NCBI GenBank assembly: GCA_017448245.1
Contig: JAFSLV010000007.1
Location: 1 to 64,000 of the forward strand
DNA length: 64,000 bases
Direction: 5' to 3'
Source of the DNA: Lachnospiraceae bacterium
GTDB lineage: Bacteria; Bacillota; Clostridia; Lachnospirales; Lachnospiraceae
A program made the translations under genes and the position numbers. Below, piece after piece: positions 26,876 through 42,936 of this stretch. Numbering within the stretch: the stretch's first letter is position 1; the number at the start of each line of letters is the position of its first letter. Below the pieces are notes generated by a model. The model did no database searches and was not told where the DNA came from. It saw only the letters and a list, made by a program, of their open reading frames with translations.

Positions 26876-27916
26876 ATGCTTCGGAGAGAACGAGATAGTA
26901 TAATATTAGATGCCCAATGCGCATTAAGAATTGACAGAGATATTTATTTCTTTGCAAAATCCGCAAATGCGTTGTATGTCTATAATATTGATGAGAACAG
27001 GACGAGACTCTTGTCTGCAATCCCCGGCAAAGACTGCTTTGATAAGATGATGGTTTCTAAAATATTATTGTACAAAGATGATTTGATTCTTATCCCCTGT
27101 TTTGGGCATTCCGTATGGACGTATAACTTGTTAATTCAAAAGTGGAGGGAGATTAGAATAAATATCTCTAATAATAAAGGCATAGTTAGTATGCAGTCTT
27201 TTGTGTGGCAGGACAGGATACATATTATTGGATGCAACAATCCGTTCAGTGTAGTATTTGATATGAAATTAAATGAAGCATTCTATTGTCATCAACCTTA
27301 CGACATTCTTAAAGACAAAATGACCAACGATACTTTCTTCCATTCAGAATATATAAAAAAGAATACGCATACGGTCGTAATGGGGTGTTGTTGTGCGAAC
27401 TGGTTAATGGAATACAATCTTGACAGTGGTAAAGGAACATTAGTCAATACAGGCGTAGAGATTAGTGACGTGGAAGGAATTGCAATATGGGGGGATGAGA
27501 GAATTATTGCGGCAAGAACCACTCATGCCGTAAAGTATTTTCGAGATGGATTATGGAAAGACGTGGCGCTGCCGCAGGATCTCCTATTTGTCTATTTAGC
27601 TTCTGTAAAGTATCATGAAAATATAATGCTCTTAGGCAAGGAGAGAGGGGCCTCTTTGGTTTTCCGCGATGGAGAATTGGTTGAGACGATAGATAGGGCT
27701 TTCTATTTTTGTGAAAAGTCAGATGTTGGCTTTATAACAATGGATACAAATAATCAATTGATTATAGTTGACAAAAACACTGAAAGAACAGGTGAATGCA
27801 GAATATCGCTCGATGAATTTTTTAATATGACAGGAGAATTGATGACTGGTTATATAATATATGAAAATGAATCTGTGATGACGATTCGTGACATGATTGA
27901 CACAATTCTAAAATAG
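26876..27916 (+). CDS. beta-propeller-like protein at the head of the glycan cluster
   Basis: This 346-residue protein shows repeated beta-strand units (ILYKDDLILIPCFGHSVWTYNL, FVWQDRIHIIGCNNPFSVVFD, IAIWGDERIIAARTTHAV and others) typical of Kelch- or WD-like propellers. I cannot assign a family. There is no signal peptide or membrane segment, so it would be cytoplasmic. It carries no Rossmann-like module, unlike the nine genes after it. It may be a scaffold or ligand-binding partner of the cluster; that is inference. Confidence 0.6.
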   Translation: MLRRERDSIILDAQCALRIDRDIYFFAKSANALYVYNIDENRTRLLSAIPGKDCFDKMMVSKILLYKDDLILIPCFGHSVWTYNLLIQKWREIRINISNNKGIVSMQSFVWQDRIHIIGCNNPFSVVFDMKLNEAFYCHQPYDILKDKMTNDTFFHSEYIKKNTHTVVMGCCCANWLMEYNLDSGKGTLVNTGVEISDVEGIAIWGDERIIAARTTHAVKYFRDGLWKDVALPQDLLFVYLASVKYHENIMLLGKERGASLVFRDGELVETIDRAFYFCEKSDVGFITMDTNNQLIIVDKNTERTGECRISLDEFFNMTGELMTGYIIYENESVMTIRDMIDTILK

Positions 27917-27969: not shown

Positions 27970-29118
27970 ATGAAGAAGATTATTTTTGGTGCAGGCTATT
28001 ACGGAAAAAAAGCATTAATGGAATTGGGTGAGGAGCAAGTATATTGCTTTATCGATAATGATGAAGAAAAACAAGATAAAGGATTCTGTGACAAGCGAGT
28101 AATCAGTATTGATGAGTATAAGAATAGTTATAACGAGTTTGAAGTGATTATTGCATCTAGGCGTTTTAGGGAAATAGAGAGACAGCTTGAGAGTCATTGC
28201 GTTGGTTCGTTTTCTGTTTGGTTTCCAAGATACACACAGTTTTCAGATGATAGCAAACTCATAGTGAATAATTATGAAGATAGAAGTCCGACTCTTTCTG
28301 AGTCAGAGAAAGTTGATCCTGAAAAAGAACATATTCAGTTTTTAAATGACTGCACAGATGCATTATTTAAACAAAAGCCGTTATTTAACCATATTGAAAT
28401 TGAGACTTATAATCGTTGTAATGGAAGGTGTGCCTTTTGCCCGGTTCATGCAGGGCATGATCCCAGAGAAGAGTGTTATATGACGGAGGAGTTATTCTAT
28501 AGAATAGTAGATGAATTGTCAGAAATTGATTATAAAGGTTGCATGGCACTGTTTTCAAATAACGAACCGTTTCTCGATGAAAGAATAATAAAGTTTCATA
28601 GAATAGTACGAAGTAGAATACCCAAAGCAAGGATGCATTTATTCACAAATGGGACAAAGCTTACAATGGAGAAGTTTGTTGAGATTGTTCAATACTTGGA
28701 TGAATTGATAATAAACAACTATAACGAGAAAAATGAGCTGAATAATAATCAAAGATTAGTTGTGGAGTATTGTGCGAAACACCCGGAACTCATAAAAAAA
28801 GTCACGATTGTAATGAGACATCCATATGAGGTTTTAGAAACACGAGGGGGGACTGCTCCAAACAGAAAGAAGAGAGCTGTTTACAGTAATGCAAAATGCA
28901 CTCATCCTTTTAGACAGATGATTGTGAGATCAAATGGCAAGGTTTCGTTATGTTGCAATGATGCGATAGGGGTTACGGATATGGGAGATGTGGAAAGAGA
29001 GTCGTTGATAGATATATGGTATGGGGATAAGTTTAATGAGGCCAGAGAGATTCTTTGGAGTTGCGGGAGAGAGAGAATATCAATCTGTAAATATTGCGAT
29101 TCATTTAGGATAGTATGA
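27970..29118 (+). CDS. radical SAM/SPASM enzyme with N-terminal Rossmann-like module
   Basis: This 382-residue protein begins KKIIFGAGYYGKKALMEL (module about residues 1-90, with IDNDEEKQ and IIASRR further on). The radical SAM core follows with CNGRCAFC (C-x3-C-x2-C, about residues 151-158) binding the 4Fe-4S cluster. A short SPASM-like region near the end has C-THPF, LCCND and ISICKYC. Radical SAM/SPASM enzymes carry out epimerisations, dehydrogenations and peptide or sugar modifications. In this cluster it probably acts on a glycan precursor, but the substrate is unknown. AAAGGTG lies before the ATG. Confidence 0.85.
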   Translation: MKKIIFGAGYYGKKALMELGEEQVYCFIDNDEEKQDKGFCDKRVISIDEYKNSYNEFEVIIASRRFREIERQLESHCVGSFSVWFPRYTQFSDDSKLIVNNYEDRSPTLSESEKVDPEKEHIQFLNDCTDALFKQKPLFNHIEIETYNRCNGRCAFCPVHAGHDPREECYMTEELFYRIVDELSEIDYKGCMALFSNNEPFLDERIIKFHRIVRSRIPKARMHLFTNGTKLTMEKFVEIVQYLDELIINNYNEKNELNNNQRLVVEYCAKHPELIKKVTIVMRHPYEVLETRGGTAPNRKKRAVYSNAKCTHPFRQMIVRSNGKVSLCCNDAIGVTDMGDVERESLIDIWYGDKFNEAREILWSCGRERISICKYCDSFRIV

Positions 29119-29119
29119 T

Positions 29120-30712
29120 ATGAACAGAAGAGTTTTTCATGACAACAATGCTCGTATTATATGTGATTTAGTTAATCGGATCATGTGTAGCATGGAGCTT
29201 GACCTGTTGTTCGTATATGGAAATCCCCCAGAGCAATTGTCCGGGTTGTATTCGGCCATTACTGTTGAGTTTATTGACAATATTGAAATGGTTAATGATA
29301 ATAATTCTATGCTTCTCATGTATATAAACGAAGATGCTGACTATTCATTTGAACGAGAATGGCTTAGGAATAGATATATGAACATCACGGCGATCATATG
29401 GGGAAATGGAGGGATTGTTGACGCATATTTTAATAGTTTCGGAACGCTGCATAATCTAGAAATGCTGTCTGGGAATGAGGCAAAAATGGTATTGGTTGGT
29501 GGCGTGTTTAACATGCCCTTTTTAGTTTTTGCACCGGAAGATTTTCGGGTTTTAGCAATTATTCATATCTATAATGAAGAAGATGTAATAGAAAACACAA
29601 TTCGCCATCTGCGCGAACATGATGTGGATGTTTATTGTATTGACAATTGGTCTACAGACAAGAGTTATGAAAAGGTGTTAAAACTTGCAGAAAATGAAGC
29701 GGATCATGTCTTTGTTGAAAGGTTTCCAAAGGAGGGAGGGACCGAGTACTACGACTGGTATCATCAGTTGGAAAGGACAGAAGAGATTAGCAAAGAACTA
29801 AACTATCAATGGTATATTCATTATGATGCCGATGAGATTAGGATTCCCCCATGGAAACAGGTTAAGTTAAGGGATGCTATATACTATATTGATTCTCTGG
29901 GATATAACATAATTGAAAATTCTGTAATTGACTTTAAGCTTACCACAGAGAGTGATGACTCAATTTTTATGAGGGATAATACATTTTTTGTGTTTCGCAA
30001 CATGGGAAGACGTTCCAGACAGCTTAAAACATGGAAAAATGTAGGGGAGATTGATTTGAAAAGTAGCGGCGGACATGTTGCCAGAATTCCATACCCCAGG
30101 GTTTTTCCGTTAAAGATACTTAATAGGCATTATCCGTTTAGATTTTTGAACCAGGCAATGGATAAAGTATTTAAATATCGAAATCCCAGATATGAAAAGG
30201 AACATCGTGAGAGGGGTTGGCATGGGCACTATAATTGCTACGAAGAGAAACACAACTTTATTTATGATGCGGACGAGTGTTTTTTGTGGGATAAGAGCAC
30301 GTTTACAGCATACTATATTCCGTTGTTTTTTGAATGTGGATTTAAAACTGATATTGACCAAGAAGAATTAGCACCCATCGCCGAATGTGAGATTTACGAA
30401 GGCGAAACTGTTGCAATATATGGTGCTGGAAAATATGGAATGAACGTATATCGGAAGCTTTCTTTTTCACATAAGGTTATTGCGTGGGTCGATCAGGATT
30501 TCCGATATTTTCAAACCATGTACTGTAAAAGGATAGAATCGCCGGAAATTTTAAGCAAAACGGATTCGGACAAGGTTGTTATTGCTATTAAGGATTCAAA
30601 TACTGCAAAAAACGTAATGGCGGAATTAGTGTCAAACGGAATTGATAAAAACAAATTACTGGGAATTACTTCCGCAAGAGATGAGATAATAGTGGGGAGG
30701 ATTAGTCAATGA
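29120..30712 (+). CDS. GT2-type glycosyltransferase with C-terminal Rossmann-like module
   Basis: In this 530-residue protein, residues about 160-390 contain a family 2 type fold: VLAIIHIYNEEDVIENTIRH, CIDNWSTDKSYE and IHYDADEIRIPPW, where DADE is the metal-binding DxD. The N-terminal 150 residues are not recognised. The C-terminus (about 425-525) carries the cluster's module, starting VAIYGAGKYGMNVYRKL and including WVDQDF and KVVIAIKDS. It starts 1 base after the radical SAM gene and overlaps the next gene by 4 bases. Confidence 0.85.
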   Translation: MNRRVFHDNNARIICDLVNRIMCSMELDLLFVYGNPPEQLSGLYSAITVEFIDNIEMVNDNNSMLLMYINEDADYSFEREWLRNRYMNITAIIWGNGGIVDAYFNSFGTLHNLEMLSGNEAKMVLVGGVFNMPFLVFAPEDFRVLAIIHIYNEEDVIENTIRHLREHDVDVYCIDNWSTDKSYEKVLKLAENEADHVFVERFPKEGGTEYYDWYHQLERTEEISKELNYQWYIHYDADEIRIPPWKQVKLRDAIYYIDSLGYNIIENSVIDFKLTTESDDSIFMRDNTFFVFRNMGRRSRQLKTWKNVGEIDLKSSGGHVARIPYPRVFPLKILNRHYPFRFLNQAMDKVFKYRNPRYEKEHRERGWHGHYNCYEEKHNFIYDADECFLWDKSTFTAYYIPLFFECGFKTDIDQEELAPIAECEIYEGETVAIYGAGKYGMNVYRKLSFSHKVIAWVDQDFRYFQTMYCKRIESPEILSKTDSDKVVIAIKDSNTAKNVMAELVSNGIDKNKLLGITSARDEIIVGRISQ

Positions 30713-32265
30713 GAAACGTTGTTTTTATTCATTTAGAAAGTTTGAACCAACTGATATATCGAATGAATAAACACTTATTTCCTGTGATTCACGAATGGGA
30801 GAAACGATCGTGGGTTTTTGATAGGTATTATGCATCGGCAACTTCCACTCTAATGGTGTTATCGGATTTGATGAATGAAGGTGCATGTTTATTTGAAGAG
30901 TGTCAGACAACCCGATGGATACTAGATAAGCGACCTCGTCATGAAAGCCTATTAGATGAGTTTTTAAAAAAAGGATATAGTGTTTCAGCCCTTGCGTTTC
31001 CGAAATTAGGGGAAGAGACGGAATCGATGAATAGAAATGGTTTTTTAGGCATGGGTGTTAGGCTCATTGAATCAGACGACATCGCGGAATATCACAAAAA
31101 TATAAAGAAAACTATCAAAAGTGGAAATGGTTTTGTACTGCTGGCATATAATTTCATGAATAATATAACGTTCAACGGATGCGTAAAAAAAGATTTAAGC
31201 GGGCTTGACAGATGGGGACATGCTTTAAGAATGATGGATCAAGAAGTGAAGTACATTCTTGATCTTTTAAAAAATGAATCAGTATTAGATAACACAACGA
31301 TCGTTTTTTATGGTGATCATGGCGATGACTTTTTTTCTCATGGCATGCATGGCGGACTAACCCATGCGATTGAACCATATAATCAACTGATTCATACGCC
31401 ATTCTTTATTTATGACAAGCGCATAAAACCACATCATGATAATAGATTGTTAAGCACAGCCGATGTAGGAAAAATTGCGCGATTTCTTGCAGGCACCAAA
31501 GAGGAGTCAATAAAAGCGGATGAAGTAATCATATGCGAAAGAAATTATGTTTTTTCCAGAAATATGTTTGCAGCTGAACGAGTAATGCCACATTCATTTG
31601 AAAAGGGATATAGCGTTTGCGATGGAAGGTTTCTTCTATTGGCAAATACAAAAGGACTACGAATGTATGATACAGAGATGGATATGCTTTGTCAACATGA
31701 CTTACTACAATACTTTGAATTCTGTGATGGTAAACTGAAGACAAGCCAGTCTGTGTTAGAAAGGATAAGGTTTCATTTGTCTTCTATCATGGATCAGGCC
31801 ACAACAATTCAAATCAAAGAAGTTTTTGACAGACTATATCCGTGGCTGATAAGCGGGATTAAAGAAATGTACAAGAAGGGTATGTGTTCGAACAGAGAAT
31901 TTGAGATTAGTTATAGATCGCTATATCAGGAGGACGAGACGGGTAACCAGATAAAATTGCTGGATTTTACGGGGTTTGATTTATATGAAAGGTATTTTAT
32001 AGATAAAAGAGTGATTATTTATGGCGCAGGTAAATATGGGAAGTATTGCTACGACAGGATGCATGATAAGTGCGAGATCATTTGCTTTATTGATCAAAAT
32101 GCACATGAAGGAGATAAATACAAAGGATGTAGCATATTACCTCCGAATAGAGTGGGTGACTTAGTTTATGATATTATTTATATTGCAATCGCAAGTGCCG
32201 GTATAAGGCAGACCATATGGAACGATCTTGTTTGTAAAGGAATATGTCAGGATAGATTGATCTGA
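30709..32265 (+). CDS. alkaline-phosphatase-superfamily transferase with C-terminal Rossmann-like module
   Basis: Residues about 1-270 of this 518-residue protein resemble the sulfatase/alkaline-phosphatase superfamily, including phosphoglycerol and phosphoethanolamine transferases: VVFIHLESLN at the start, ASATSTLM near the nucleophile position, and VFYGDHGDDFFSHGMHGG with the metal-binding DH. There are no membrane segments, unlike LtaS, so it would work in the cytoplasm. The module at about 428-518 starts VIIYGAGKYGKYCYDRM and has FIDQNAHEGD. It probably transfers or removes a polar head group on the glycan. Confidence 0.8.
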   Translation: MRNVVFIHLESLNQLIYRMNKHLFPVIHEWEKRSWVFDRYYASATSTLMVLSDLMNEGACLFEECQTTRWILDKRPRHESLLDEFLKKGYSVSALAFPKLGEETESMNRNGFLGMGVRLIESDDIAEYHKNIKKTIKSGNGFVLLAYNFMNNITFNGCVKKDLSGLDRWGHALRMMDQEVKYILDLLKNESVLDNTTIVFYGDHGDDFFSHGMHGGLTHAIEPYNQLIHTPFFIYDKRIKPHHDNRLLSTADVGKIARFLAGTKEESIKADEVIICERNYVFSRNMFAAERVMPHSFEKGYSVCDGRFLLLANTKGLRMYDTEMDMLCQHDLLQYFEFCDGKLKTSQSVLERIRFHLSSIMDQATTIQIKEVFDRLYPWLISGIKEMYKKGMCSNREFEISYRSLYQEDETGNQIKLLDFTGFDLYERYFIDKRVIIYGAGKYGKYCYDRMHDKCEIICFIDQNAHEGDKYKGCSILPPNRVGDLVYDIIYIAIASAGIRQTIWNDLVCKGICQDRLI

Positions 32266-32412
32266 ATAGAAATAGGTGTTATTTGCTAGAGTTTCTGGAA
32301 TAAACGATTCATATGAGACGATTATGCATATATATCATATATTGAACTTGAAGAATACAACATAGATACCCGTTTGCCGACGGACTGTATTAACAACACT
32401 CAACACAGAAAT

Positions 32413-33648
32413 ATGAAAATGAAGAAAGCGGCAGTTTGTGTACCGGTTTATAAACCATTTCTTAATACTTTTGAAGAGGTGGCTTTGCGACAGATAAATG
32501 CTGTTTTGGGAGGCTATGACAGATACCTTGTCTTGCCTGCAAGCCTATCATACCACTATGGGGGGCTCTGTGATCAATTTAAGGAGATTCGTATAGATGA
32601 TTCATTTTTTGAGAGCAAAGAGTCATATAGTCAGCTGTTGTTATCAGTAGATTTCTACAGGAGCTTTGGCGATTACGAGTATATTTTAATTTGTCAGACC
32701 GATGCTTTGGTATTTAATGATAAGCTAAGCATGTTTTGTGATATGGGATATGACTATATAGGCGCCCCAAGCAGAGGTGGGATGTATGATGAAATGGGCA
32801 TGTATGTCGGAAACGGCGGATTATCATTGCGTAAGGTAGATAGTGTAACTAGAATCCTGCATGAACAAGAAGACGTATTAAAACATTCTACTATGGGAGA
32901 TGCATTCAGAAGCGCTGAGGATGTTTTCTTTACATATTGCGGGGGACGGGAGGATATTAAATTTGATGTGCCAGATATCATGATTGCACAAAGCTTTGCT
33001 GCAGAGCATAATTTCAATGAGTGTTTGCTGAAGTTATGCATTAATAATCTGCCGTTTGGAACGCACTATTGGCCGCAGTTTAATTACCAAGTCTGGTATC
33101 ATATAGTCAGAGAAATGGGGTATAGTGTTCCGGCTCCGTCAGCGGTGAAGTACATCGATTCTACATTGGACGACAGAGAGTGGTGGAAGGATTATTGCTG
33201 CAGAACGTACGCGATAAAGGCCAATGTGCATGACAAAAGACTGTTGCTAAAGGACAGCGGCATAGAACAAGAAGAGGCGTGTGCAATATGGGGAGGGGGC
33301 GTTATTGGTGTACAGTGTATAGAATTATTGACGGCGTTAGGAATACAGATAGAAAAGATAATAGACAAGAAGTCAAAAAGAAAGCTATTTCGGTATTCAG
33401 ATATACCGGTTATAAAGCCGGATATTGATTCGTTTAAGTCAAGCAGAATTGTAGTGATTTCATCTACTAAGTATGAAAGCGAGATGTGCAACGAGTTGGA
33501 CACAATGGGATTTGTTAGGGGGACATCATATTTTGTATATTCCGATTTATTAACATGTGTGAGACAAAACTATATACGCTTATTAAATGATGGCAAGATA
33601 GTTGATGGGCGAATGGATGCACTTCTTTCCATAGGATGTAATGAATGA
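32413..33648 (+). CDS. DUF5672-like glycosyltransferase with C-terminal Rossmann-like module
   Basis: The N-terminal 250 residues of this 411-residue protein match the DUF5672 pattern: AAVCVPVYKP, YILICQTDALVFNDKL (DxD-like), YDYIGAPSRGG and VGNGGLSLRKVDSV. DUF5672 is a glycosyltransferase-like family. The C-terminus (about 290-395) carries the module in the form ACAIWGGGVIGVQCIEL with IIDKKSKR and IVVISSTK. No good ribosome site is seen. Starts at 32374 (TTG), 32413 and 32419 are possible, and 32413 fits the domain best. The 147 bases before it show no clear promoter. Confidence 0.78.
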   Translation: MKMKKAAVCVPVYKPFLNTFEEVALRQINAVLGGYDRYLVLPASLSYHYGGLCDQFKEIRIDDSFFESKESYSQLLLSVDFYRSFGDYEYILICQTDALVFNDKLSMFCDMGYDYIGAPSRGGMYDEMGMYVGNGGLSLRKVDSVTRILHEQEDVLKHSTMGDAFRSAEDVFFTYCGGREDIKFDVPDIMIAQSFAAEHNFNECLLKLCINNLPFGTHYWPQFNYQVWYHIVREMGYSVPAPSAVKYIDSTLDDREWWKDYCCRTYAIKANVHDKRLLLKDSGIEQEEACAIWGGGVIGVQCIELLTALGIQIEKIIDKKSKRKLFRYSDIPVIKPDIDSFKSSRIVVISSTKYESEMCNELDTMGFVRGTSYFVYSDLLTCVRQNYIRLLNDGKIVDGRMDALLSIGCNE

Positions 33649-35308
33649 TAAAATGAACGGCTCCAAAAAGATTGGCAGGAAACAGATTACGGTGGTGAAC
33701 CATTTCTTTTTTTTGCCCCCGCAGATGGGCGGGAGTATTTATATCTATGATTTCTATCTGGAATTGTCACGTTGGTTTGATATTAATATCATTACTATAG
33801 TAATGGAGGATTTTTACCAGGAAAGAATAAGCATCAATGAACACTTGCATGTGTACCCGATGGCTTTGTCGCACAATATAATGCAGAGAAAGTCAAACTA
33901 TCAACTGCCAGAATTATTCGTTTCGAACGAATCCGTGCAGGATGAAGGAGTACTTAAAAAGGTATCGGAGATTGCAAGCGATTCTGTTATTGTGATTGCC
34001 GAACACTGCTATATGTGGAAACTCATAAAAAAAACATGTAAGAATTGCGACTATTGGTATAGGGCTCATAACGTGGAATATGATTTTGTTATTGGACGCT
34101 ATGGGATAAGGAGAGATGATGAAAGCGCAAGGTCTGTTTATGAGATTGAGAATGACTGCTGTAAGGGCTGTGACACAATACTAACTATATCGCAGGCTGA
34201 TCGTGAGAGGTTTATCGGACTGTACGCCTCAATTTCTCAACATAATAAGCAGGTGTATGTATTAGGAGTCGGGTATAATGTGGATAAAATAACGAAAAGC
34301 GCGAGTAATGAGTCGAAAAATGGTTTGAATAATCGTGTATATAGAGGGCTTTTTATTTCCTCTGTATCGCAGGATGCGATTTCGGCTGCTTATGCGTGCA
34401 TGGATATAGCAAAGAAATTCCCTCACATACAAATCATCGTTGCCGGAGGAGTTGGTGATGCGTTACAAAGAGAAAATGTTCCAAAAAATGTTTGTATTTT
34501 AGGAATAATTACGGACAGAGAAAAAGAATACCTACTTTCGAATTGTGATTTTGCGCTAAATATATTAGAGGCGGGGGCCGGCGTCAATATTAAAATGTTG
34601 GAATACATGGCATACAAGCTTCCTATAATCACGACAGATGCTGGCGCGAGGGGAATAATGCTAAAGGACGGAGTTCATTGCATTATCACAGAAAAAAATC
34701 GGTATGACGAAGATGTGAAACGATTCTGTTCGCTAAGCAGTGAGGAGAAGGAAAAGATGGCGGAAAATGCATATTCCCTGATTAATAAAGAATATAATTG
34801 GCGGAGTATAACAGAAAGACTTGTAGCTATGACAGAAAAAAGGTATTCATTTAGTTTTAATGATGTCGAAACAAATATTTTCGGAGGAGGAGTGTTTGAC
34901 AAGTGGTTTGATTTTAATGATTATCCTCAAAAACCGTATTATATCCGATGTGCGGGCAACATCGGAGTTAGATGCTATGAGTTATTAAAAAGACTCCGGA
35001 ATGAACCAATTGCTTTTGTTGACGAGTCCAAAGAAAAGAGAAGTACGGGAACGGCGGGAATCAAAACAATTTCGGTAGATGAATACATGGACGATCAAAG
35101 AGACACTGCCGTTATAATCGCATCTGTGAATGCGGTAGACAGGGCTGCTGAATTAATACGATTCGGGATTAATATAGATGACATGTTGGTGACAATCGAT
35201 GGAACCAATATTATCAGTCTGGACAACAATCGCAAGGAACATTACTTTATTTCAAAGGACAAAATACGAAGAAGAATACAAGAGCTGGTGGAGCGCGAGA
35301 GGAGATGA
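33641..35308 (+). CDS. GT4-type glycosyltransferase with degenerate C-terminal module
   Basis: This 555-residue protein has a GT-B fold. The N-terminal half includes HFFFLPPQMGGSIYIYDF and YRAHNVEYDF. The C-terminal half includes IIVAGGVGDALQR, CDFALNILEAGAGVNIKMLEYMA and PIITTDAGARG, typical of GT4/GT1 nucleotide-sugar binding. After residue about 420 comes the cluster's module in a weaker form (YYIRCAGNIGVRCYELL, AFVDESKEKRS, AVIIASVN). It overlaps the genes on both sides by a few bases, so translation is coupled. Confidence 0.83.
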   Translation: MNDKMNGSKKIGRKQITVVNHFFFLPPQMGGSIYIYDFYLELSRWFDINIITIVMEDFYQERISINEHLHVYPMALSHNIMQRKSNYQLPELFVSNESVQDEGVLKKVSEIASDSVIVIAEHCYMWKLIKKTCKNCDYWYRAHNVEYDFVIGRYGIRRDDESARSVYEIENDCCKGCDTILTISQADRERFIGLYASISQHNKQVYVLGVGYNVDKITKSASNESKNGLNNRVYRGLFISSVSQDAISAAYACMDIAKKFPHIQIIVAGGVGDALQRENVPKNVCILGIITDREKEYLLSNCDFALNILEAGAGVNIKMLEYMAYKLPIITTDAGARGIMLKDGVHCIITEKNRYDEDVKRFCSLSSEEKEKMAENAYSLINKEYNWRSITERLVAMTEKRYSFSFNDVETNIFGGGVFDKWFDFNDYPQKPYYIRCAGNIGVRCYELLKRLRNEPIAFVDESKEKRSTGTAGIKTISVDEYMDDQRDTAVIIASVNAVDRAAELIRFGINIDDMLVTIDGTNIISLDNNRKEHYFISKDKIRRRIQELVERERR

Positions 35309-36795
35309 TATTAGAGTCACTGAAACTGAAGAAAACGGTTGTATTGTACGGTGCGGGAAACTGTGCAGTATGGTGTATTTATGTACTGAAGCGCGAAGGA
35401 ATAGAAGTGAGTTTTATTGTGGATAATTCAATCAAAAAGCAGGGGGGGGACTTAAAGGGGATTCCCATAAAGAACCACACTGATTCAATAGGGCTCATAA
35501 ACGAAATGCCTGTATTGATATCGGTTGCCGACAAAAACGCAAATGAATCAATACGAAGATTACTGCTCGAATCCGGGATCAATGAAGGCCAGGTTTTAAG
35601 GTACCAGGATTTTAGAGAAGAGATGGTGATGCTTTATGCGTCAGATTATAGTGCTGATATGGTGATGGACGCTGATGAAAAGTCCGACAGGGAATTAGAT
35701 AGAAACATTTCAGTGTTGTATGATTGTCAGCTTTTCATGCTACAAAGACATGGGGGAATTTCCAGATACTTATACGAACTGATCACCAGAGAAACGGATA
35801 AGACCAACAATGTGGAGATGTTTCAAGGAATTCATGTCAGTGAGATATCTTTAGAAGGATATAAAGATAGGTTTAGGAGATACTATGCAACTAAAGCAGA
35901 AGATGATGTATTCCGTTGGAGTGATTTTTTAAGGGGGATAAATAAAAAATTATTAGATGTATTTGTCTCAGGCCACGAACCGTACGATATTTATCATCCA
36001 ACATACTATGAAGACTATGGAATAAACAACTATAGGAAAAAGGTTCTTACTGTTCACGACTTAATACAAGAAGTATATAATCTGGATAAAAAAACTATTG
36101 ATAATAAAAAAAACAGCATAGAGAATTCTGACGGTATAATTGCGGTTTCAAATAGCACAAAAAGAGATCTAATAGACATATTGGCAGTGCGTGAAGAGAA
36201 AATACGAGTGATATATCTTGCGAATTCGATGACGCTTACACCGACACAGGATCAAATGGTAGATGAGAATTATATTTTGTATGTTGGTAATAGAGGCGGG
36301 TACAAGAACTTCGCTACGTTGCTGGATGCATATTCACGTTCCTCGTATGTAGGTGATGTCGCGCTTGTGTGTTTTGGTGGAGAAGAGCCAAATGTTGAAG
36401 AGATAGCGCAAATTTGTGAATTGGGAATCGAAGATAGGGTATTCTTTCGGCGGGGCGGCGACCTGGAGTTGGCAAATTACTATAACCAGGCAGAAGTATT
36501 TATATATCCATCGCGGTATGAAGGATTTGGGCTTCCGGTTTTGGAAGCTATGCATTATGGAACGCCGGTTATTTCGTCTAATACATCATCATTACCGGAG
36601 GTAGCGGGAGATGCGGCAATAATGGTTTGCCCGGAGCGTGCAGATGAAATAGCATACCAAGTAGACCGGCTATTGAATGACGAATCTTTGAGGCGTCATT
36701 ATGCGCAGAAAGGCCGTGAACGGGAGAAATTGTTTTCGTGGGAAAGATGCTCATATGAAACGCATCGTTTTTATTGTGAATTAATAGCGGGATAG
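35305..36795 (+). CDS. GT4-type glycosyltransferase with N-terminal Rossmann-like module
   Basis: Residues 1-110 of this 496-residue protein are the module (KKTVVLYGAGNCAVWCIYVL, FIVDNSIKKQGG, PVLISVADK). A GT-B glycosyltransferase follows, with QRHGGISRYLYEL, TVHDLIQEVY, AVSNSTKRDLI, ILYVGNRGGYKNF, FIYPSRYEGFGLPVLEAM and PVISSNTSSLPEVAGDAA. The last motifs are classic for mannosyl- and related GT4 enzymes, with the ExFGxxxxE acid pattern (EGFGLPVLE). Here the module is N-terminal, while in the previous gene it is C-terminal. Confidence 0.87.
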   Translation: MILESLKLKKTVVLYGAGNCAVWCIYVLKREGIEVSFIVDNSIKKQGGDLKGIPIKNHTDSIGLINEMPVLISVADKNANESIRRLLLESGINEGQVLRYQDFREEMVMLYASDYSADMVMDADEKSDRELDRNISVLYDCQLFMLQRHGGISRYLYELITRETDKTNNVEMFQGIHVSEISLEGYKDRFRRYYATKAEDDVFRWSDFLRGINKKLLDVFVSGHEPYDIYHPTYYEDYGINNYRKKVLTVHDLIQEVYNLDKKTIDNKKNSIENSDGIIAVSNSTKRDLIDILAVREEKIRVIYLANSMTLTPTQDQMVDENYILYVGNRGGYKNFATLLDAYSRSSYVGDVALVCFGGEEPNVEEIAQICELGIEDRVFFRRGGDLELANYYNQAEVFIYPSRYEGFGLPVLEAMHYGTPVISSNTSSLPEVAGDAAIMVCPERADEIAYQVDRLLNDESLRRHYAQKGREREKLFSWERCSYETHRFYCELIAG

Positions 36796-36799
36796 CAGT

Positions 36800-37918
36800 A
36801 TGAAAGTATCTGTAATAACTGTTTGTATGAATGCGTCAATGACGATTGAACGATGCTTAAAGAGTGTCATTAAACAGAAAACTGGCAATGTGGAATATAT
36901 AGTGATTGATGGTGCGTCTGGCGACGGAACAGTGGATATTCTTCGTAAGTATGCGAAGTACATAACAAAAATGGTTTCAGAACCCGATCAGGGAATATAT
37001 GATGCTATGAATAAAGGCATCAGACTCTCGACAGGGGATTGGATTACGTTTATTAATGCGGACGATGAGTTGGCAGAGGGCGCAGTGGAAACTGTGGCAA
37101 ACTTTGTTGCTAAAAACGCAGATGTAGATGTTGTTTACGGAGATATTTGCTACGCGGATGGTTCGTCTATAACCAGAAACAAATACGATAGAATTGATTT
37201 GACGAGGATTTATTATGAAATGGCAATTGCACACCCGGGAACTTTTATTCGAGGGGGTGTTTGTAAAAGCCATCTGTTTAATACACAGTATCAGCTGTCA
37301 GCTGATTATGACATGTTGAGAAGATTATACGTTGAAGGATATAGATTCTACCATGTGCCGCACGTTCAGGCTGTTTTTTATAAAGGAGGAGCGACGTCCC
37401 AAAGACTTTATGATTCCGTTATGGAAACATGTGCTATAGCGCGTAGGGGAATAATGAAAGATGCGTATCTGCAAGAGAAGTATTTATCAATTATTGAATT
37501 GAGAGAGTATCTGGCATTTTTTTATTCTGTGCGCGATGAAATCCCCCAGTGTCGGGAGGTGTGTGATGCCATCAGAGAAGATTTGTTTTTGACTAAAGAT
37601 ATAGTAATATTCGGTGCAGGACGTGATGGCAGAGAATTTGCGTCCATTTTGAATTCTATTAATATCCCCATCAATGCGTTTACTGACAATAAAAGTGAGT
37701 TATGGGAAACAGAATGTATGGGGATCGATATAAAACCGCCGAGTGCACTTGAAGGGATAAGTAATACCGTTATTATAGCCGCATCAAAATTGTACTATTC
37801 CAGCATGAAGATGCAGATACATACCATTGTTTCTGATGAAAGTGTTGATGTTTTTGATATGCTGGAAGTAATGGGGCATATCGGTAGATTGTATTATGAA
37901 AGGACAAATTGTATATGA
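36800..37918 (+). CDS. GT2 glycosyltransferase with C-terminal Rossmann-like module
   Basis: In this 372-residue protein, residues 1-230 form a family 2 enzyme: VSVITVCMNASMTIERCLKSV, YIVIDGASGDGTVDIL, EPDQGIYDAMNKGI and FINADDEL (DxD). The EPDQGIYDAMNKG stretch is typical of WcaA-like colanic and capsule transferases. The module follows at about 270-365 (DIVIFGAGRDGREFASIL, FTDNKSELWE, VIIAASKLY). It starts 4 bases after the previous stop and overlaps the next start (ATGA). Confidence 0.88.
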   Translation: MKVSVITVCMNASMTIERCLKSVIKQKTGNVEYIVIDGASGDGTVDILRKYAKYITKMVSEPDQGIYDAMNKGIRLSTGDWITFINADDELAEGAVETVANFVAKNADVDVVYGDICYADGSSITRNKYDRIDLTRIYYEMAIAHPGTFIRGGVCKSHLFNTQYQLSADYDMLRRLYVEGYRFYHVPHVQAVFYKGGATSQRLYDSVMETCAIARRGIMKDAYLQEKYLSIIELREYLAFFYSVRDEIPQCREVCDAIREDLFLTKDIVIFGAGRDGREFASILNSINIPINAFTDNKSELWETECMGIDIKPPSALEGISNTVIIAASKLYYSSMKMQIHTIVSDESVDVFDMLEVMGHIGRLYYERTNCI

Positions 37919-39087
37919 GATTACGATCTAAAGAAATCGCTGATATTTGCAACAAGATGAATGACAGGGGTATTGTCGTATATGGAGCAGGTGCGAATGG
38001 AGTTTCTGCTATAGAGTCACTTCGTGCAGAAGGATATCGGATAAAGGCTGTTGCTGACAAAAGAGTTGGAGCTGACGTTATGGGATTTACAACGGTTTCA
38101 CTGGATGATCTATGTAATATGTCAGCGAATGAAGTGTGCATTGTCACCCCGAACACCGGTGTAAGTGACGAGAGGAATAAACTAAAAATGCACTATGATA
38201 CAGTAATAGATAATGAAATCATCACATGGATGAAATACTATTTACCAGCAGCATCATCCGGCTTTGCGGGCGCTAAAGCCACAAACCTGCACCCGTTTAA
38301 TCATTATGAGTCTCCTTATCCGTGCGAAAGCGAAGTGGAACAGATACGATACGATGCAGACGTTTTGGATATTCCATTCGATAGAAATAAGCAGGATTAC
38401 ATGATTGGGAATCTTATTTCATTTGGATCGGAGTATGTCTCTCTCATGGAGCGCAACAACACACGATATGTAACCAATAGCATGTATTCATTGGGGGACA
38501 CAATTGTTCTCCACTATATGTTAAGGGCATATAAGCCAAAGAACATTATCGAAATAGGGAGCGGTTTTTCCACATGTGTTATGTTGGATACAAATCAAAA
38601 CTGGCTCGATGGGGAAATGCACATCCGCTGTATTGAACCGTATCCGGCCCGCCTGTATGCGAATCTCAGGGATGGGGATGCAGAACGTTTATTAGTGGAT
38701 GAGACATATGTCCAGAATGTGGATTTGTCTGTTTTTGCCGAACTGAAAGAAAGTGATGTTTTGTTTATTGATTCGTCACACGTAGCCAAACATGGCGGTG
38801 ATGTTAATTATGAGCTGTTTGAAATATTGCCACGTCTTGCATCCGGAGTGTTGATCCACATACACGACATTTTCTGGCCGTTTCAATATCCTCTTGAGTG
38901 GATACATCAAGGCAGGGCTTATAATGAGCTTTATCTTTTGAGAGCGTTTTTAATGAACAATGACGCATATGAGATTCTTTGTTTCAACCATACGCTATTT
39001 GACGAGCGTGGAAAAGAGATAGCCGGAAAAATAGGGGCAGAAAGTGTGACGCTTCATGGGGGAAGTATTTGGTTAAGAAAGAAATGA
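37915..39087 (+). CDS. SAM methyltransferase with N-terminal Rossmann-like module
   Basis: Residues 1-105 of this 390-residue protein are the module (GIVVYGAGANGVSAIESL, VADKRVGAD, VCIVTPNTG). The rest is a class I methyltransferase of the Methyltransf_24 type: PKNIIEIGSGFSTCVML for SAM binding, RCIEPYPARL, DVLFIDSSHVAKHGGDV and IHIHDIFWPF. Such enzymes methylate sugars or other small groups on glycans. ATG 37915 overlaps the previous stop and is preferred to the TTG two codons upstream. Confidence 0.82.
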   Translation: MRLRSKEIADICNKMNDRGIVVYGAGANGVSAIESLRAEGYRIKAVADKRVGADVMGFTTVSLDDLCNMSANEVCIVTPNTGVSDERNKLKMHYDTVIDNEIITWMKYYLPAASSGFAGAKATNLHPFNHYESPYPCESEVEQIRYDADVLDIPFDRNKQDYMIGNLISFGSEYVSLMERNNTRYVTNSMYSLGDTIVLHYMLRAYKPKNIIEIGSGFSTCVMLDTNQNWLDGEMHIRCIEPYPARLYANLRDGDAERLLVDETYVQNVDLSVFAELKESDVLFIDSSHVAKHGGDVNYELFEILPRLASGVLIHIHDIFWPFQYPLEWIHQGRAYNELYLLRAFLMNNDAYEILCFNHTLFDERGKEIAGKIGAESVTLHGGSIWLRKK

Positions 39088-39136
39088 GCAGAGGGATGGT
39101 TTTTCCAATGGATAGTATGAAGGAGTATGAGACTGT

Positions 39137-40339
39137 ATGAAAGTTTCGGTCATTATTCCGGTCTATAACGCAGAATCGTCAATTACACGATGCCTTGACA
39201 GTGTTCTGGCGCAGACACTGGATGAAATTGAGATAATCTGTGTGGATGACGGCTCCACGGATGGCTCAGCTGCTGTTTTACTGGCATATGCAAAAAAGAA
39301 TATCAGAATAAAAGTTATCCGGCAAAAAAACAGCGGTGCCATGTCGGCGAGGAAAGAGGCATTGAAGTATGCACGTGGAGAGTATGTTGGTTTTGTGGAT
39401 TGTGATGACTGGATTGACCCGGGCATGTATCAGTCTCTTTTATCCATTGCAGAAAAAACAAGTGCAGACATGGTGACATCTGCCTATACGATTGAGGGAA
39501 ACTATCGTTCCATTCAACCGGATTCCGTTCCATCAGGCACATATACCGAAGAAAACATTAATACTCTTAGAGAAAATGCCCTTCTTGATTTAAGGAACAA
39601 TGATTTGGGAATCAGTGCTTCTATGTGTACAAAATTGTTTCGAAGAGGATTGATTCAGGAGGTTATAGAGAGAATACCGGATTCGCTTGTTTTTTCCGAA
39701 GATAAGATGTGTGTGTATACATTTTTATTGGAAGCGAAACGTGTGGTTATCACGAAGGAGGCCTACTATCACTATGTCATGAACCCTCATTCTGTCACGC
39801 ACAAACCGGATATGGACTATCTGGAACATGTCAATGATGTGTACAAATATCTGATGTCGCTTTATGAACGCGATGATTTTACCCCTGGCATGCGTATCCA
39901 GGCGGAGCTCTACGTCACGCAAATGCTGCTCAAGGGAATCAACACGCGCATGGGTTTTTCCTTCCGCAATCTGCTCTGGATCGATCCGTACTGGATGGAG
40001 AAGGTTCCGAAGGGGAGTCTTGTTGCGTTATACGGGGGGGGCGATCTTGGTCGTAAGTACTATGAGCAGCTTTGCGCGTCCAAAAGTCTGCGCTTTGCAG
40101 GATGCGTGGATTATGGATATGAGAGAATGCACGACGACCGATTTGAGATTGTATCGCCTGAGGCGCTTGCAGATATGCAATACGACTGCGTTGTCATCAC
40201 GATCAAGAACCTGGAGAAGGCGGAGGAAACCCGACGGCAACTCATAAGCGACGGCATCCCGCCGGAAAAGATCCTCTGGTTCAAGCAGGAAGAGATCTTC
40301 TGGAAATATGCGGAGGCCATGGGGCTGTTGGACGATTGA
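39137..40339 (+). CDS. GT2 glycosyltransferase with C-terminal module, compositional mosaic
   Basis: The N-terminal 230 residues of this 400-residue protein are family 2: VSVIIPVYNAESSITRCLDSVL, CVDDGSTDGSA, GYVGFVDCDDWIDPGMY-like DxD region, and a late SEDKMCVYTFLLEA. The module at about 296-395 starts LVALYGGGDLGRKYYEQL. The first 250 codons are AT-rich like the island. From about 39880 the gene becomes GC-rich (many C/G third positions) like the rest of the chromosome. This suggests a recombination joint inside the gene, just before the module. Confidence 0.85.
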   Translation: MKVSVIIPVYNAESSITRCLDSVLAQTLDEIEIICVDDGSTDGSAAVLLAYAKKNIRIKVIRQKNSGAMSARKEALKYARGEYVGFVDCDDWIDPGMYQSLLSIAEKTSADMVTSAYTIEGNYRSIQPDSVPSGTYTEENINTLRENALLDLRNNDLGISASMCTKLFRRGLIQEVIERIPDSLVFSEDKMCVYTFLLEAKRVVITKEAYYHYVMNPHSVTHKPDMDYLEHVNDVYKYLMSLYERDDFTPGMRIQAELYVTQMLLKGINTRMGFSFRNLLWIDPYWMEKVPKGSLVALYGGGDLGRKYYEQLCASKSLRFAGCVDYGYERMHDDRFEIVSPEALADMQYDCVVITIKNLEKAEETRRQLISDGIPPEKILWFKQEEIFWKYAEAMGLLDD

Positions 40340-40361
40340 TCGGGACAAAGGAACCGGACGA

Positions 40362-41579
40362 ATGACGCAGGCGGAAGCATACGAAAAAGAATATCGAAAC
40401 CGCTACAGGGATAAACCGCTCGAGGATATCATCGTCTTCCGTAGCGGTCCGATGCCTGAGTCCTATACGCCCGGAATGGATTTTGATGACAATGCCAGGG
40501 CGTTGTTTGAGTATGCGCTGCAGATACAACTCAATGACAGATACGCATTGGTCTGGTTTGTCAAAGACCCCGCGGAACGCAGCATACAATACAGGGAGTA
40601 TAAAAACGTATCCTTTATCTCTTACGAAGCAGCATGGTCAGAGGATCCGGCAGAGAGAGATGTCTACTACCGGTCTCTGTGTCTTGCACGCTACATTTTT
40701 ATGACGGACACCTACGGTTTTGCGTTGCAGGCAAGACCGGATCAGATCCGCGTGATGCTGTGGCACGGCTGCGGATTCAAGACGAGGCTCGGATTTGCGT
40801 CAAATGAGGACCACTACGAATACATGACGGTGACCGGGGACGAATATGCGCGGACGTACGCCAGGGTCTTTGGCCTGCGTGACGACCAGATGCTGGTGAC
40901 CGGCTATCCGAAGGCGGACTATCTCTTTCATCCGGTGAGGCGCTGGAAGGAGATGTTTGACATACCGGAGGCTGCCTCATATATCTTCTGGTTGCCGACC
41001 TTTCGGAACACAGACCGGGAGGATCTTGCAAGACATGATCATACGGCACCGAAGGGCGATCTCGGACTGCCGGTACTGCAATCCGCAAAAGACCTGGAAG
41101 AGGTCAACGCACATCTTGCGGCAAAGGACACGGTGCTGGTCATCAAGCTGCATCCGTTTCAAAACAGAAAGAGAATCCGGGATATCTCCAGGCTGTCCCA
41201 TATACGGCTTCTGGAAAATGCGGACATGCTGCGGCACGATATACAGATCAATCAGCTGCTCGGGCATGCGGAGGCGCTGATCAGTGATTATTCCTCGGCG
41301 GCCGTGGATTATCTCGTATTGGACCGTCCGGTAGCGATGACACTCGATGACATAGAGACCTATGAAAAGGAACGCGGTTTTTTCTGGGAGGATGTGAGAC
41401 CGTGGCTGCCGGGATATGAGATTTATGGCAAAGAAGATTTTGTGAGATTTCTGGATGGCGTCATGGGCGGCGCTGATCCGGGCAGTAAAAAGCGGCATGC
41501 CGTCATGGATCAGATGCAAAAGTATCGGGATGACAAAAGTGCGCAGCGGGTTCTGGAAGCGCTCGGAATAAGAGCATGA
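40362..41579 (+). CDS. CDP-glycerol glycerophosphotransferase family protein (TagB/TagF-like)
   Basis: The C-terminal half of this 405-residue protein has the polymerase family motifs: MLWHGCGFKTRLGF, TGYPKADYLF, WLPTFRNTDR, VIKLHPFQN and ALISDYSSAAVDYLVLDRPVAM. These enzymes transfer glycerol- or ribitol-phosphate from the CDP-polyol to a lipid-linked acceptor. It lacks an extra N-terminal glycosyltransferase and lacks the Rossmann-like module of its upstream neighbours. AAAGGA before ATG 40362 supports this start. It lies between the transferases and the TagD fusion, so a polyol-phosphate glycan is likely. Confidence 0.85.
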   Translation: MTQAEAYEKEYRNRYRDKPLEDIIVFRSGPMPESYTPGMDFDDNARALFEYALQIQLNDRYALVWFVKDPAERSIQYREYKNVSFISYEAAWSEDPAERDVYYRSLCLARYIFMTDTYGFALQARPDQIRVMLWHGCGFKTRLGFASNEDHYEYMTVTGDEYARTYARVFGLRDDQMLVTGYPKADYLFHPVRRWKEMFDIPEAASYIFWLPTFRNTDREDLARHDHTAPKGDLGLPVLQSAKDLEEVNAHLAAKDTVLVIKLHPFQNRKRIRDISRLSHIRLLENADMLRHDIQINQLLGHAEALISDYSSAAVDYLVLDRPVAMTLDDIETYEKERGFFWEDVRPWLPGYEIYGKEDFVRFLDGVMGGADPGSKKRHAVMDQMQKYRDDKSAQRVLEALGIRA

Positions 41580-41589
41580 GGAGCGGCAT

Positions 41590-42936
41590 ATGAAGACAGT
41601 GATTACCTACGGGACATTCGATCTGTTTCATGAAGGGCATTATAACATTCTCAAGCGCGCCAAGGAGCTGGGGGACTATCTGATTGTGGGTGTGACCACG
41701 GAAGGCTACGACATGTCGCGCGGCAAGCTCAACGTGGTGGAGCCCGTCATGGATCGCATCGAGCATGTGAAGCAGAGCGGCTTTGCCGATCAGATCATCA
41801 TCGAGGATCATGTCGGACAAAAAATCGAGGACATCCAGAAATACCATGTGGATACCTTTGTCATCGGCTCGGACTGGCTGGGCAAATTTGACTATCTGAA
41901 GGAGTACTGCGAAGTCGTCTATCTCGAACGCACCAAGGGCGTATCCAGCACCCTGAAACGGAGCGAGGAATACAAGCTGATCCGGATCGGCGTCGTCGGA
42001 AGCGGACGCATTGCGGGACGATTTGTCGCGGAGGCCAGATATGTCAGCGGTATCCACGTTGCTGGCGTCTTTAATCCTCATATGGAGAGTGCAAGGGCTT
42101 TTGCCAAAGAGTACGAGCTCGACATCTGCGAAGACGACTATGACAGATTTCTCAGGGAAGTGGATGCGGTCTATGTGGCGTCCCCGCACGGGACACATTA
42201 CGCCTATGCCTTGCAGGCGCTGGAGCAGGGAAAGCACGCGCTCGTCGAAAAGCCGATGGTGCTGAAAAAGGCGGAAGCGGAAAGGTTATTTTCTCTCGCA
42301 TATGCTAAGAAGCGCGTGTTGATGGAAGCGATCAAGACGGCCTATGCCCCCGGTTTTATCCGGATGATCACGATGGCCAAGAGCGGACTGATCGGGGAGA
42401 TCAGGGATGTGGAAGCGTGCTTTACCAAGCTGACGGGGGACAATACCAGAGAGTTTCTGGATACGGAGTACGGCGGGAGCTTTACGGAGCTTGCAAGTTA
42501 TACGCTGCTTTCGATATTCAAGATCTTCGGCTGCGACGAGCAGGGCGTGGAGTTCTCCTCCATGTTCACCGAAAAAGGGCCGGACGGTTATACCAAGGCC
42601 TATTTTACCTTTAAAAACGGCATTGCCACCTCCAAGACCGGACTGAAGGTCAAATCGGAGGGGGCGCTCGTCATCTCCGGAACGGGCGGCTATATCCGCG
42701 TGGAAGCACCCTGGTGGAAGACAAAGGAATTTGAGATTTGCTACGAAGATACATCCAAAAACGAAAAGGTCTATTCGCAGTTTCAGGGTGACGGTCTCCG
42801 CTATGAGATCAGCGATTTTGTGAACGCGATCAATCATTACGGCAACACCGGCTACAAGCTGACACAGGAAGAGTCCGTAAAGCTGGCGGAGATGATGGAG
42901 AGGTTCCTCGAATATCGCAAATCGAAGGGTTCATGA
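41590..42936 (+). CDS. glycerol-3-phosphate cytidylyltransferase (TagD-like) fused to a Gfo/Idh/MocA oxidoreductase
   Basis: Residues 1-130 of this 448-residue protein are a TagD-type cytidylyltransferase: TYGTFDLFHEGHYNIL (HxGH), VIGSDWLGKFDY and LERTKGVSSTLKR (the RTxGxST motif). From about residue 134 there is a complete NAD(P)-dependent oxidoreductase: IRIGVVGSGRIAGRF, YVASPHGTHYAYALQALEQGKHALVEKP (the EKP motif) and a C-terminal beta-sheet domain. The fusion suggests one protein that reduces or oxidises a polyol or sugar phosphate and activates it with CTP. The exact substrate is unknown. It ends the glycan run. Confidence 0.85.
   Translation: MKTVITYGTFDLFHEGHYNILKRAKELGDYLIVGVTTEGYDMSRGKLNVVEPVMDRIEHVKQSGFADQIIIEDHVGQKIEDIQKYHVDTFVIGSDWLGKFDYLKEYCEVVYLERTKGVSSTLKRSEEYKLIRIGVVGSGRIAGRFVAEARYVSGIHVAGVFNPHMESARAFAKEYELDICEDDYDRFLREVDAVYVASPHGTHYAYALQALEQGKHALVEKPMVLKKAEAERLFSLAYAKKRVLMEAIKTAYAPGFIRMITMAKSGLIGEIRDVEACFTKLTGDNTREFLDTEYGGSFTELASYTLLSIFKIFGCDEQGVEFSSMFTEKGPDGYTKAYFTFKNGIATSKTGLKVKSEGALVISGTGGYIRVEAPWWKTKEFEICYEDTSKNEKVYSQFQGDGLRYEISDFVNAINHYGNTGYKLTQEESVKLAEMMERFLEYRKSKGS

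Follow-up and report, generated by a model that had tools for sequence, protein, structure and literature searches.

It is already known that glycan enzymes such as WbaP and PglF can carry a non-catalytic Rossmann accessory domain. For the PF13727 domain of WbaP, referred to as the DUF, it has been reported that uridine mono-, di- and triphosphate (UMP, UDP and UTP) stabilise it and that UDP-galactose (UDP-Gal) destabilises it, that UMP inhibits WbaP with an apparent half-maximal inhibitory concentration (IC50) of 4.1 uM, and that the inter-chain contacts of this dimerising protein lie mostly in the DUF; in the same report the authors call it "tempting" to extend feedback through the DUF to PglF-like dehydratases (PMC10942596). 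In a second report, the N-terminal domain of Psychrobacter Pcryo_0637 has been described as a UDP binding platform, in which Asp 40 lies close to the ribose and Asp 41 is placed at the uracil (PMC8040287). In this study, we analysed a stretch of 64,000 nucleotides of Lachnospiraceae DNA (contig JAFSLV010000007.1; referred to below as the window), in which nine consecutive glycan enzymes of unlike catalytic type each carry one homologous module of about 90 residues that is, as judged from profile comparisons, of the Rossmann type. What is new is the spread of such a module over a whole pathway, for which no precedent in print was found in the open-licence literature. A domain that tags most enzymes of a pathway gives a direct handle on how bacteria coordinate the numerous enzymes behind one surface glycan; ligand, regulation and complex formation become addressable on a single 90-residue fold.

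One module on nine consecutive enzymes

The window belongs to a genome of 2.54 Mb in 48 contigs, and "genus" in the counts given here means the genus of this genome, taken as Butyrivibrio. The nine enzymes are encoded by consecutive open reading frames (ORFs), all on the + strand between 27970 and 40339, at the coordinates that an earlier note on this DNA had given, and the intergenic gaps across the run are 1, -4, 108, -8, -4, 4, -10 and 49 bases. The Pfam labels of the catalytic parts are, in gene order, Radical_SAM/SPASM, GT2, Sulfatase (a match which in the third enzyme stands for the alkaline-phosphatase superfamily), DUF5672, GT4, GT4, GT2, Methyltransf_24 and GT2, in agreement with the enzyme types that the note had named from reading the sequence. 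Its placement of the module was likewise right, N-terminal on three enzymes (27970, 35305 and 37909) and C-terminal on the other six, and the length of 90-110 residues which it gave is refined to profile envelopes of 89-105 residues. The modules are as follows, each with the E-value of the iterated profile and that of the leave-one-out search.

27970..28251, + strand: module 1, N-terminal on the radical SAM/SPASM enzyme (ORF 27970-29118); 1.4e-18, leave-one-out 2.9e-10
30395..30700, + strand: module 2, C-terminal on a GT2-type enzyme (ORF 29120-30712); 8.7e-21, leave-one-out 4.9e-13
31996..32262, + strand: module 3, C-terminal on the sulfatase/alkaline-phosphatase-superfamily enzyme (ORF 30709-32265); 2.3e-20, leave-one-out 1.1e-12; PglD_N match of 25.2 bits
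33265..33555, + strand: module 4, C-terminal on the DUF5672 enzyme (ORF 32374-33648); 6e-17, leave-one-out 1.8e-11
34922..35221, + strand: module 5, C-terminal on a GT4-type enzyme (ORF 33641-35308); 3.1e-16, leave-one-out 5.5e-11
35323..35637, + strand: module 6, N-terminal on a GT4 enzyme (ORF 35305-36795); 3.9e-21, leave-one-out 2.8e-14
37589..37879, + strand: module 7, C-terminal on a GT2 enzyme (ORF 36800-37918); 8.9e-20, leave-one-out 1.7e-8
37957..38241, + strand: module 8, N-terminal on the Methyltransf_24 enzyme (ORF 37909-39087); 3.8e-13, leave-one-out 9.4e-7, the weakest of the nine
40007..40306, + strand: module 9, C-terminal on a GT2 enzyme (ORF 39137-40339); 3.1e-21, leave-one-out 8.4e-13

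The claim that these enzymes share one module is borne out. The nine modules align with each other at the sequence level without any of them failing to do so, with one loop Gly and one Asp invariant, and a profile built from any eight, searched against 52 ORFs of the window that were picked mechanically, longest first, recovered the ninth in 9/9 cases, with E-values from 9.4e-7 down to 2.8e-14. The best non-member in these searches, a zinc alcohol dehydrogenase by Pfam, scored 1e-5 to 3.1e-3, and the iterated profile gave no match at E<1e-3 in 353 composition-shuffled ORFs. Pairwise identity between modules is 21-40% (BLAST matches at E<0.01), and identity to the first row of the alignment is 14-33%. 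Modules that have diverged to this extent do not derive from a recent duplication, so that tandem duplication of this kind is ruled out as their origin. A search of viral contigs with the sulfatase-type protein gave 17 pattern matches and no relatives.

Within this genome the module is restricted to one locus. The nine-row profile found the nine modules, then one match at 1.3e-5 and one at 0.23, and the sole other clear match is a FlaA1/PglF-type dehydratase in which the matched stretch, residues 161-243, lies inside a PF13727 match (residues 106-256); in a search of this single protein the iterated profile reached 1.1e-11 on the same stretch. The genome contains 33 GT2 (PF00535) and 18 GT4 (PF13692) domain matches, a few of which share one protein; counted in this way, the module accompanies 5/5 matches in the locus (three GT2 and two GT4) and 0/46 elsewhere (Fisher's exact p 4.3e-7). 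The FlaA1-type chain also allows a comparison of two Rossmann domains side by side, and here the nine-row profile prefers the PF13727 region (1.2e-8) to the catalytic NAD-binding domain (0.13). Together with the scores of the alcohol dehydrogenase, this rules out that the modules are ordinary NAD dehydrogenase halves, and no described catalytic domain with an activity of its own fits as an explanation, although a catalytic reductase (7xdu, 1.8e-6) is among the matches to solved structures.

Spread in the genus and beyond

The observation is upheld, and its extent goes beyond what the earlier note saw. At E<=1e-6, five or more module matches, and up to 19, are present in 19 of the 37 genomes of the genus; the remaining 18, which include many incomplete genomes, have 0 to 4, and a count of four is not exceeded in any of the 24 genomes from other families of the order. 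We assembled a set of 16 loci, consisting of the window and the loci of 15 further genus genomes picked for their matches, in which 145 proteins with a total of 146 modules were counted at E<1e-5. A looser threshold gave 149 domains in 148 proteins, including three ORFs, two of them short and HAD-like and one nucleotidyltransferase-like, which on inspection by eye seem spurious. The 146 modules are placed N-terminally (68), C-terminally (61), internally (7) or as free-standing proteins (9), and 136 of the 194 ORFs of at least 170 residues that lie between the first and last module of a locus carry one, the share per locus ranging from 9/9 in the window to 4/8 in G025. Among the internal cases are modules in the middle of long proteins, ahead of a C-terminal cytidylyltransferase domain (L060:7613-9991, L047:5887-9171 and L043:11376-13589); the N-terminus of the second of these proteins is a GT2 domain.

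Module-bearing proteins of the 16 loci span about 20 catalytic Pfam families, namely GT2, GT4, DUF4422, radical SAM, LicD, cytidylyltransferase, FkbM methyltransferase, Gly_transf_sug, WbsX, RgpF, DUF5672, TagF-type, DUF1919, GT10, TOD1, capsule synthesis, carbamoyltransferase, citrate-lyase-ligase, pyruvyltransferase and FrhB. This tally took in 93 of the 145 proteins, those that lie whole in one fetched piece, have at least 170 residues, fall within a residue limit and come from outside the window (94 were eligible and one with a doubtful start was dropped); the figure of about 20 derives from 25 of 51 tally rows after the GT2, GT4 and carbamoyltransferase rows had been merged, and two of the families occur in one protein. 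Clustering of the catalytic parts gave 49 clusters, which is an upper bound because some clusters split one family, the window's first GT2-type enzyme, for example, standing alone. In practical terms, the module works as a sequence flag, which places enzymes of unknown function (DUF5672, DUF4422, DUF1919 and WbsX) of Butyrivibrio and its relatives in one kind of pathway.

Across the phylum, at least 302 of 398 genomes have one or more module matches at 1e-5 and at least 43 have four or more, these counts being lower bounds since no more than 12 candidates were scored in each genome. Many of the lone matches listed lie in open frames of about 210-250 residues in the phylum and of about 650 residues in the genus, lengths which would fit PglD or Rex types and FlaA1 types, respectively. 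In 14 loci from other genera, one from each of 14 genomes picked for high match counts rather than at random, the module is present on 96 proteins, each locus having between 2 and 15 of them, and on 94 of the 137 ORFs that lie in the spans; GT2, GT4, TagF, FkbM, radical SAM, methyltransferase and other families are again represented.

Such a mobile domain might be no more than evolutionary ballast, an aid to folding or solubility that is recombined within polysaccharide loci and has no common function. The great divergence of the modules and their position at either end of the enzymes would agree with this, as would the lack of the Asp in 33/146 genus modules (22 of which have Val, and some of which are perhaps misaligned). 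However, the loop and the Asp are kept in most modules (loop Gly in 141/145, second Gly in 127/144 and Asp in 113/146), free-standing copies have been retained, and a module on about 70% of in-span genes in both sets of loci is set against none on the 46 GT2/GT4 matches elsewhere in the window genome. We therefore consider ballast very improbable.

Relatives, proposed ligand and possible contacts of the module

For comparison with solved structures, a profile was made from an alignment of 118 modules, the nine of the window and 109 of 133 listed reference modules (nearly all of the 24 that were omitted are from the weak end). Its top matches are the redox regulator Rex (1.2e-10, profile positions 4-92) and the accessory domain of a FlaA1-type protein (3nkl, 1.6e-10), followed by the tetrahydrodipicolinate reductase 7xdu, VioB (2.1e-6), WbaP chains (3.9e-6 to 4.3e-6), TrkA (2.3e-5) and a Psychrobacter PglD-type acetyltransferase (2.9e-4). 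With the nine-module profile, 3nkl is first (4.9e-9), and a designed protein and coenzyme A (CoA) disulfide reductase come next, ahead of VioB and Rex at 1.7e-3. By profile, the best solved relatives are mostly non-catalytic nucleotide-binding domains (Rex, 3nkl, VioB and the WbaP DUF), and most of the profile relatives hold a nucleotide or dinucleotide in the Rossmann pocket without doing chemistry.

Rex binds nicotinamide adenine dinucleotide (NAD(H)), and a GxGxxG loop followed by an Asp is the classical NAD fingerprint. As Rex is the best single match in the PDB, the module might bind NAD(H) in the same way and adjust the synthesis of surface glycans to the cellular redox state. The preference of the nine-row profile for the PF13727 domain over an NAD-binding catalytic domain in one and the same chain argues against this idea, as do the low scores of the window's alcohol dehydrogenase and the fact that the module-bearing neighbours are glycan enzymes; we regard redox sensing as very unlikely.

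In Pfam, no one model spans the whole module. At E<=0.1 the most frequent matches of the 118 modules are PglD_N (44), C2185-like_N (22), CoA_binding (17) and Methyltransf_14 (17), and of ten modules checked singly, two exceed the PglD_N cut-off and one exceeds those of CoA_binding and KARI_N. Five of the nine window modules have a PglD_N (PF17836) match of any strength (E<=1), the cut-off of 23.4 bits being exceeded in one window protein, that of module 3, and PF13727 is not among the 16 Pfam families that match the nine modules at E<=1. The Pfam scan of the nine proteins gave no acetyltransferase family at E<=1, and hence no left-handed beta-helix partner, and no membrane domain beside the modules, no topology predictor having been applied; family-model scans of the same proteins gave no winged-helix DNA-binding domain of the Rex type.

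These matches raise the question of whether the module handles substrate, that is, holds the nucleotide part of a nucleoside diphosphate (NDP)-sugar or cytidine diphosphate (CDP)-polyol in place for the neighbouring active site, in the way that the N-domain of PglD holds UDP-sugar. In addition to the frequency of PglD_N matches, a D-N pair after strand 2 is found in VioB and in many modules, and the N-domain of Pcryo_0637 is reported to bind UDP (PMC8040287). However, one would not expect NDP-sugars to be substrates of radical SAM, Methyltransf_24 or sulfatase-fold enzymes. GT2 and GT4 enzymes already possess a donor site of their own, and the window's two GT4 enzymes carry the module at opposite ends, which is unsuited to a shared active site. 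Taken together, these points make a role in substrate handling unlikely.

The strongly conserved positions of the module are the nucleotide loop, the Asp and one core-like Leu. The Asp is kept in 83% of the 118-module alignment and in all nine window modules. An Asp is not needed for a Rossmann fold, and its retention therefore points to a ribose-bearing ligand. The earlier note had suggested "a docking or common-ligand domain", and the second half of this proposal is strengthened by the conservation of loop and Asp and by the nucleotide-binding nature of most solved relatives.

To examine the first half, a quick tree was made from about 90 residues of the 146 modules of the 16 genomes, and changes of label along it were compared with 200 shuffles. 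The tree follows enzyme class (clusters of three or more, 90 rows: 31 changes versus 45.7 +/- 1.1 shuffled) and N- or C-terminal position (130 rows: 28 versus 43.9 +/- 2.9), whereas genome of origin gives no signal, either overall (146 rows: 112 versus 113.1 +/- 2.8) or within the largest catalytic cluster (34 versus 34.0 +/- 1.4). A module therefore tends to stay with the type of enzyme to which it belongs, which is expected if a module serves its own enzyme. A pairing code particular to the locus should have left some signal of the genome in the tree, and docking through such a code is left unsupported.

Docking could also be generic, in that modules bind each other, or a further protein, and so gather the enzymes, ligand binding being secondary or lost. 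The nine free-standing modules of the genus loci are informative in this respect. Five of them adjoin a module-less enzyme whose homologues are fused to a module elsewhere (a DUF4422 enzyme in G004, a WbsX and a GT4 enzyme in G028, a methyltransferase in G012 and a GT4 enzyme in G020), which indicates that a module can be maintained as a protein of its own next to its enzyme. A module-less neighbour by itself is not telling, because about 30% of genes in the spans lack the module, and the two GT4 cases count less because GT4 is a large superfamily. Two others (G008 and G033) adjoin a protein that we call propeller-like, and the last two, one in G001 and one next to a WbmS-like deacetylase in G012, showed no relation of either kind. 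In the window the propeller-like protein immediately precedes the nine enzymes.

26876..27916, + strand: propeller-like protein without module or Pfam match, ending 53 bases before the first enzyme

A propeller fold for this family is weakly suggested by its PDB matches, which are Utp4, a quinoprotein and a kelch protein, all at E 0.09 to 1 and all, going by their names, presumably propeller proteins. A family profile of eight rows from module loci (one 846-residue member of nine was omitted) found relatives at E<=1e-6 in 13 of 61 genomes, all of the genus: besides the window, the places are in G004, G007, G008, G012, G013, G024, G025, G027, G029, G033, G035 and G036. At every place found, a module lies within 12 kb, and for the six places that were not used in the profile the distances are 1.1, 1.1, 1.2, 5.1, 7.2 and 11.5 kb; weak relatives are also present in 2/14 loci from other genera. 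However, of the 19 genomes in the genus that have at least five modules, seven (G001, G005, G011, G014, G020, G028 and G031) gave no match at E<=1e-6. This rules out a propeller protein in every module locus, and the family is therefore no general hub.

The company that free-standing modules keep, the constant nearness of the propeller-like family to modules and the placement of modules at either enzyme end, occasionally mid-protein, would all suit a scaffold, and in WbaP it is the DUF that makes most inter-chain contacts (PMC10942596). The missing genome signal, the concentration of conservation at the nucleotide loop, Asp and core-like Leu rather than elsewhere, and the module-rich genomes without a propeller match speak against docking as the primary function, which we consider a rather doubtful possibility. 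Generic contact between modules is nevertheless probable by analogy, since free-standing modules and the DUF of WbaP, a dimerising domain according to the report cited above, keep it alive.

The reading that we favour, with a probability of roughly 45%, is a pathway-wide nucleotide-sensing accessory domain that probably dimerises, for which we infer a ligand, an allosteric effect and dimers. According to this proposal, the module would be a non-catalytic nucleotide-binding Rossmann accessory domain of the kind of the PF13727 DUF and the PglD/VioB N-domain, spread over most of the pathway in these loci. Each module would bind one common small ribose-bearing ligand, most likely a pyrimidine nucleotide from the pathway itself, such as the UMP, UDP or cytidine monophosphate (CMP) of the transfer steps, and its bound state would set the activity of the catalytic domain to which the module belongs, with generic module-module dimers probably taking part. 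As an outcome, all enzymes of one surface glycan would slow or run together.

Several observations weigh against this reading. Rex binds NAD(H), so that a dinucleotide fits the motif equally well, and the catalytic reductase 7xdu and TrkA are among the profile matches. For the radical SAM, methyltransferase and phosphatase-type enzymes, release of a pyrimidine nucleotide is not a necessary part of the reaction. The modules that lack the Asp would have to be accommodated, and in the DUF4422 cluster Val replaces it in six of seven modules (for example L051:1331-2437 and L060:10010-11455), which may be a sub-class that binds something else or nothing. The residue following the first Asp in the nine window modules is N, Q, Q, K, E, N, N, K and Y, respectively, and the uracil-type second Asp, as far as equivalence can be judged from the motif, is found in none of them; UDP read exactly as in Pcryo_0637 is therefore not supported. 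Finally, the WbaP DUF was destabilised by UDP-Gal, and the authors of that report consider that UMP may in part compete at the active site (PMC10942596).

A broader proposal would combine control with assembly: one metabolite would set both activity and clustering, through a module that is fused to, or encoded adjacent to, about 70% of the enzymes, with a propeller-like partner in some loci. We put this forward tentatively, as a possibility that is less likely than not.

Pathway context and comparison with known systems

Downstream of the nine enzymes, two window genes without a module point to the kind of polymer that may be made.

40308..41579, + strand: CDP-glycerol/ribitol glycerophosphotransferase (TagF/TarF-like; PF04464 3.1e-50), overlapping the ninth enzyme by 32 bases, no module
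41590..42936, + strand: TagD-type cytidylyltransferase (PF01467 4.1e-18) and Gfo/Idh/MocA oxidoreductase (PF01408 3.1e-25) in one chain, no module

The first of these proteins matches the TarF model at 6.5e-16, below the cut-off of that model, and the fusion in the second is an unusual pairing. Further on, between 45343 and 48004, a ribulose-phosphate-epimerase-type protein, an IspD-type cytidylyltransferase and an alcohol dehydrogenase follow in a row, which looks like a CDP-ribitol set of the TarIJ type with its own epimerase. Taken together, the families of the enzymes encoded between 40308 and 48004 hint at a surface glycan that bears phosphate and at a ribitol-like CDP-polyol as a building block. 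Elsewhere, proteins of such families are themselves module-bearing, namely the LicD, TagF-type and cytidylyltransferase proteins of other loci. Upstream of the glycan run, small genes between 23732 and 26367 are like toxin-antitoxin pairs, with HEPN (23732) and nucleotidyltransferase (25022) matches in Pfam and similar genes by eye at 25380 and 26041. The proteins at 198-3311 and 5456-7006 seem by eye to combine a DegV-like domain with a part that resembles a histidine kinase or a membrane protein.

The docking domains of polyketide synthases (PKS) and non-ribosomal peptide synthetases (NRPS) are small add-ons at protein ends that pair selectively with neighbours in a multi-enzyme pathway. The modules resemble them as small terminal add-ons in such a pathway, but show no locus-specific signal and have, by profile, a Rossmann-type fold. 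With the NADH-sensing domain of Rex (kin of PF02629), they share the loop and the Asp as well as the best PDB profile match; in contrast to Rex, they have no DNA-binding domain and are fused to glycan enzymes. PglD_N of the NeuD/PglD/VioB acetyltransferases is the most frequent Pfam match and has the same loop and a ribose-type Asp, in a domain that binds UDP in the case of Pcryo_0637 (PMC8040287), whereas the nine proteins of the window lack the acetyltransferase beta-helix and the second, uracil-type Asp. The PF13727 (CoA_binding_3) DUF of WbaP and of PglF/FlaA1/CapD is like the module in its profile homology, its non-catalytic nature and its occurrence in surface-glycan enzymes, and in WbaP it is nucleotide-responsive and dimerising. 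It differs in being preceded by a four-helix membrane domain and in occurring on two types of enzyme, whereas the module described here is N- or C-terminal on about 20 catalytic families. If the sensor reading is true, the nucleotide feedback proposed for WbaP would be extended from an initiating transferase to a whole pathway.

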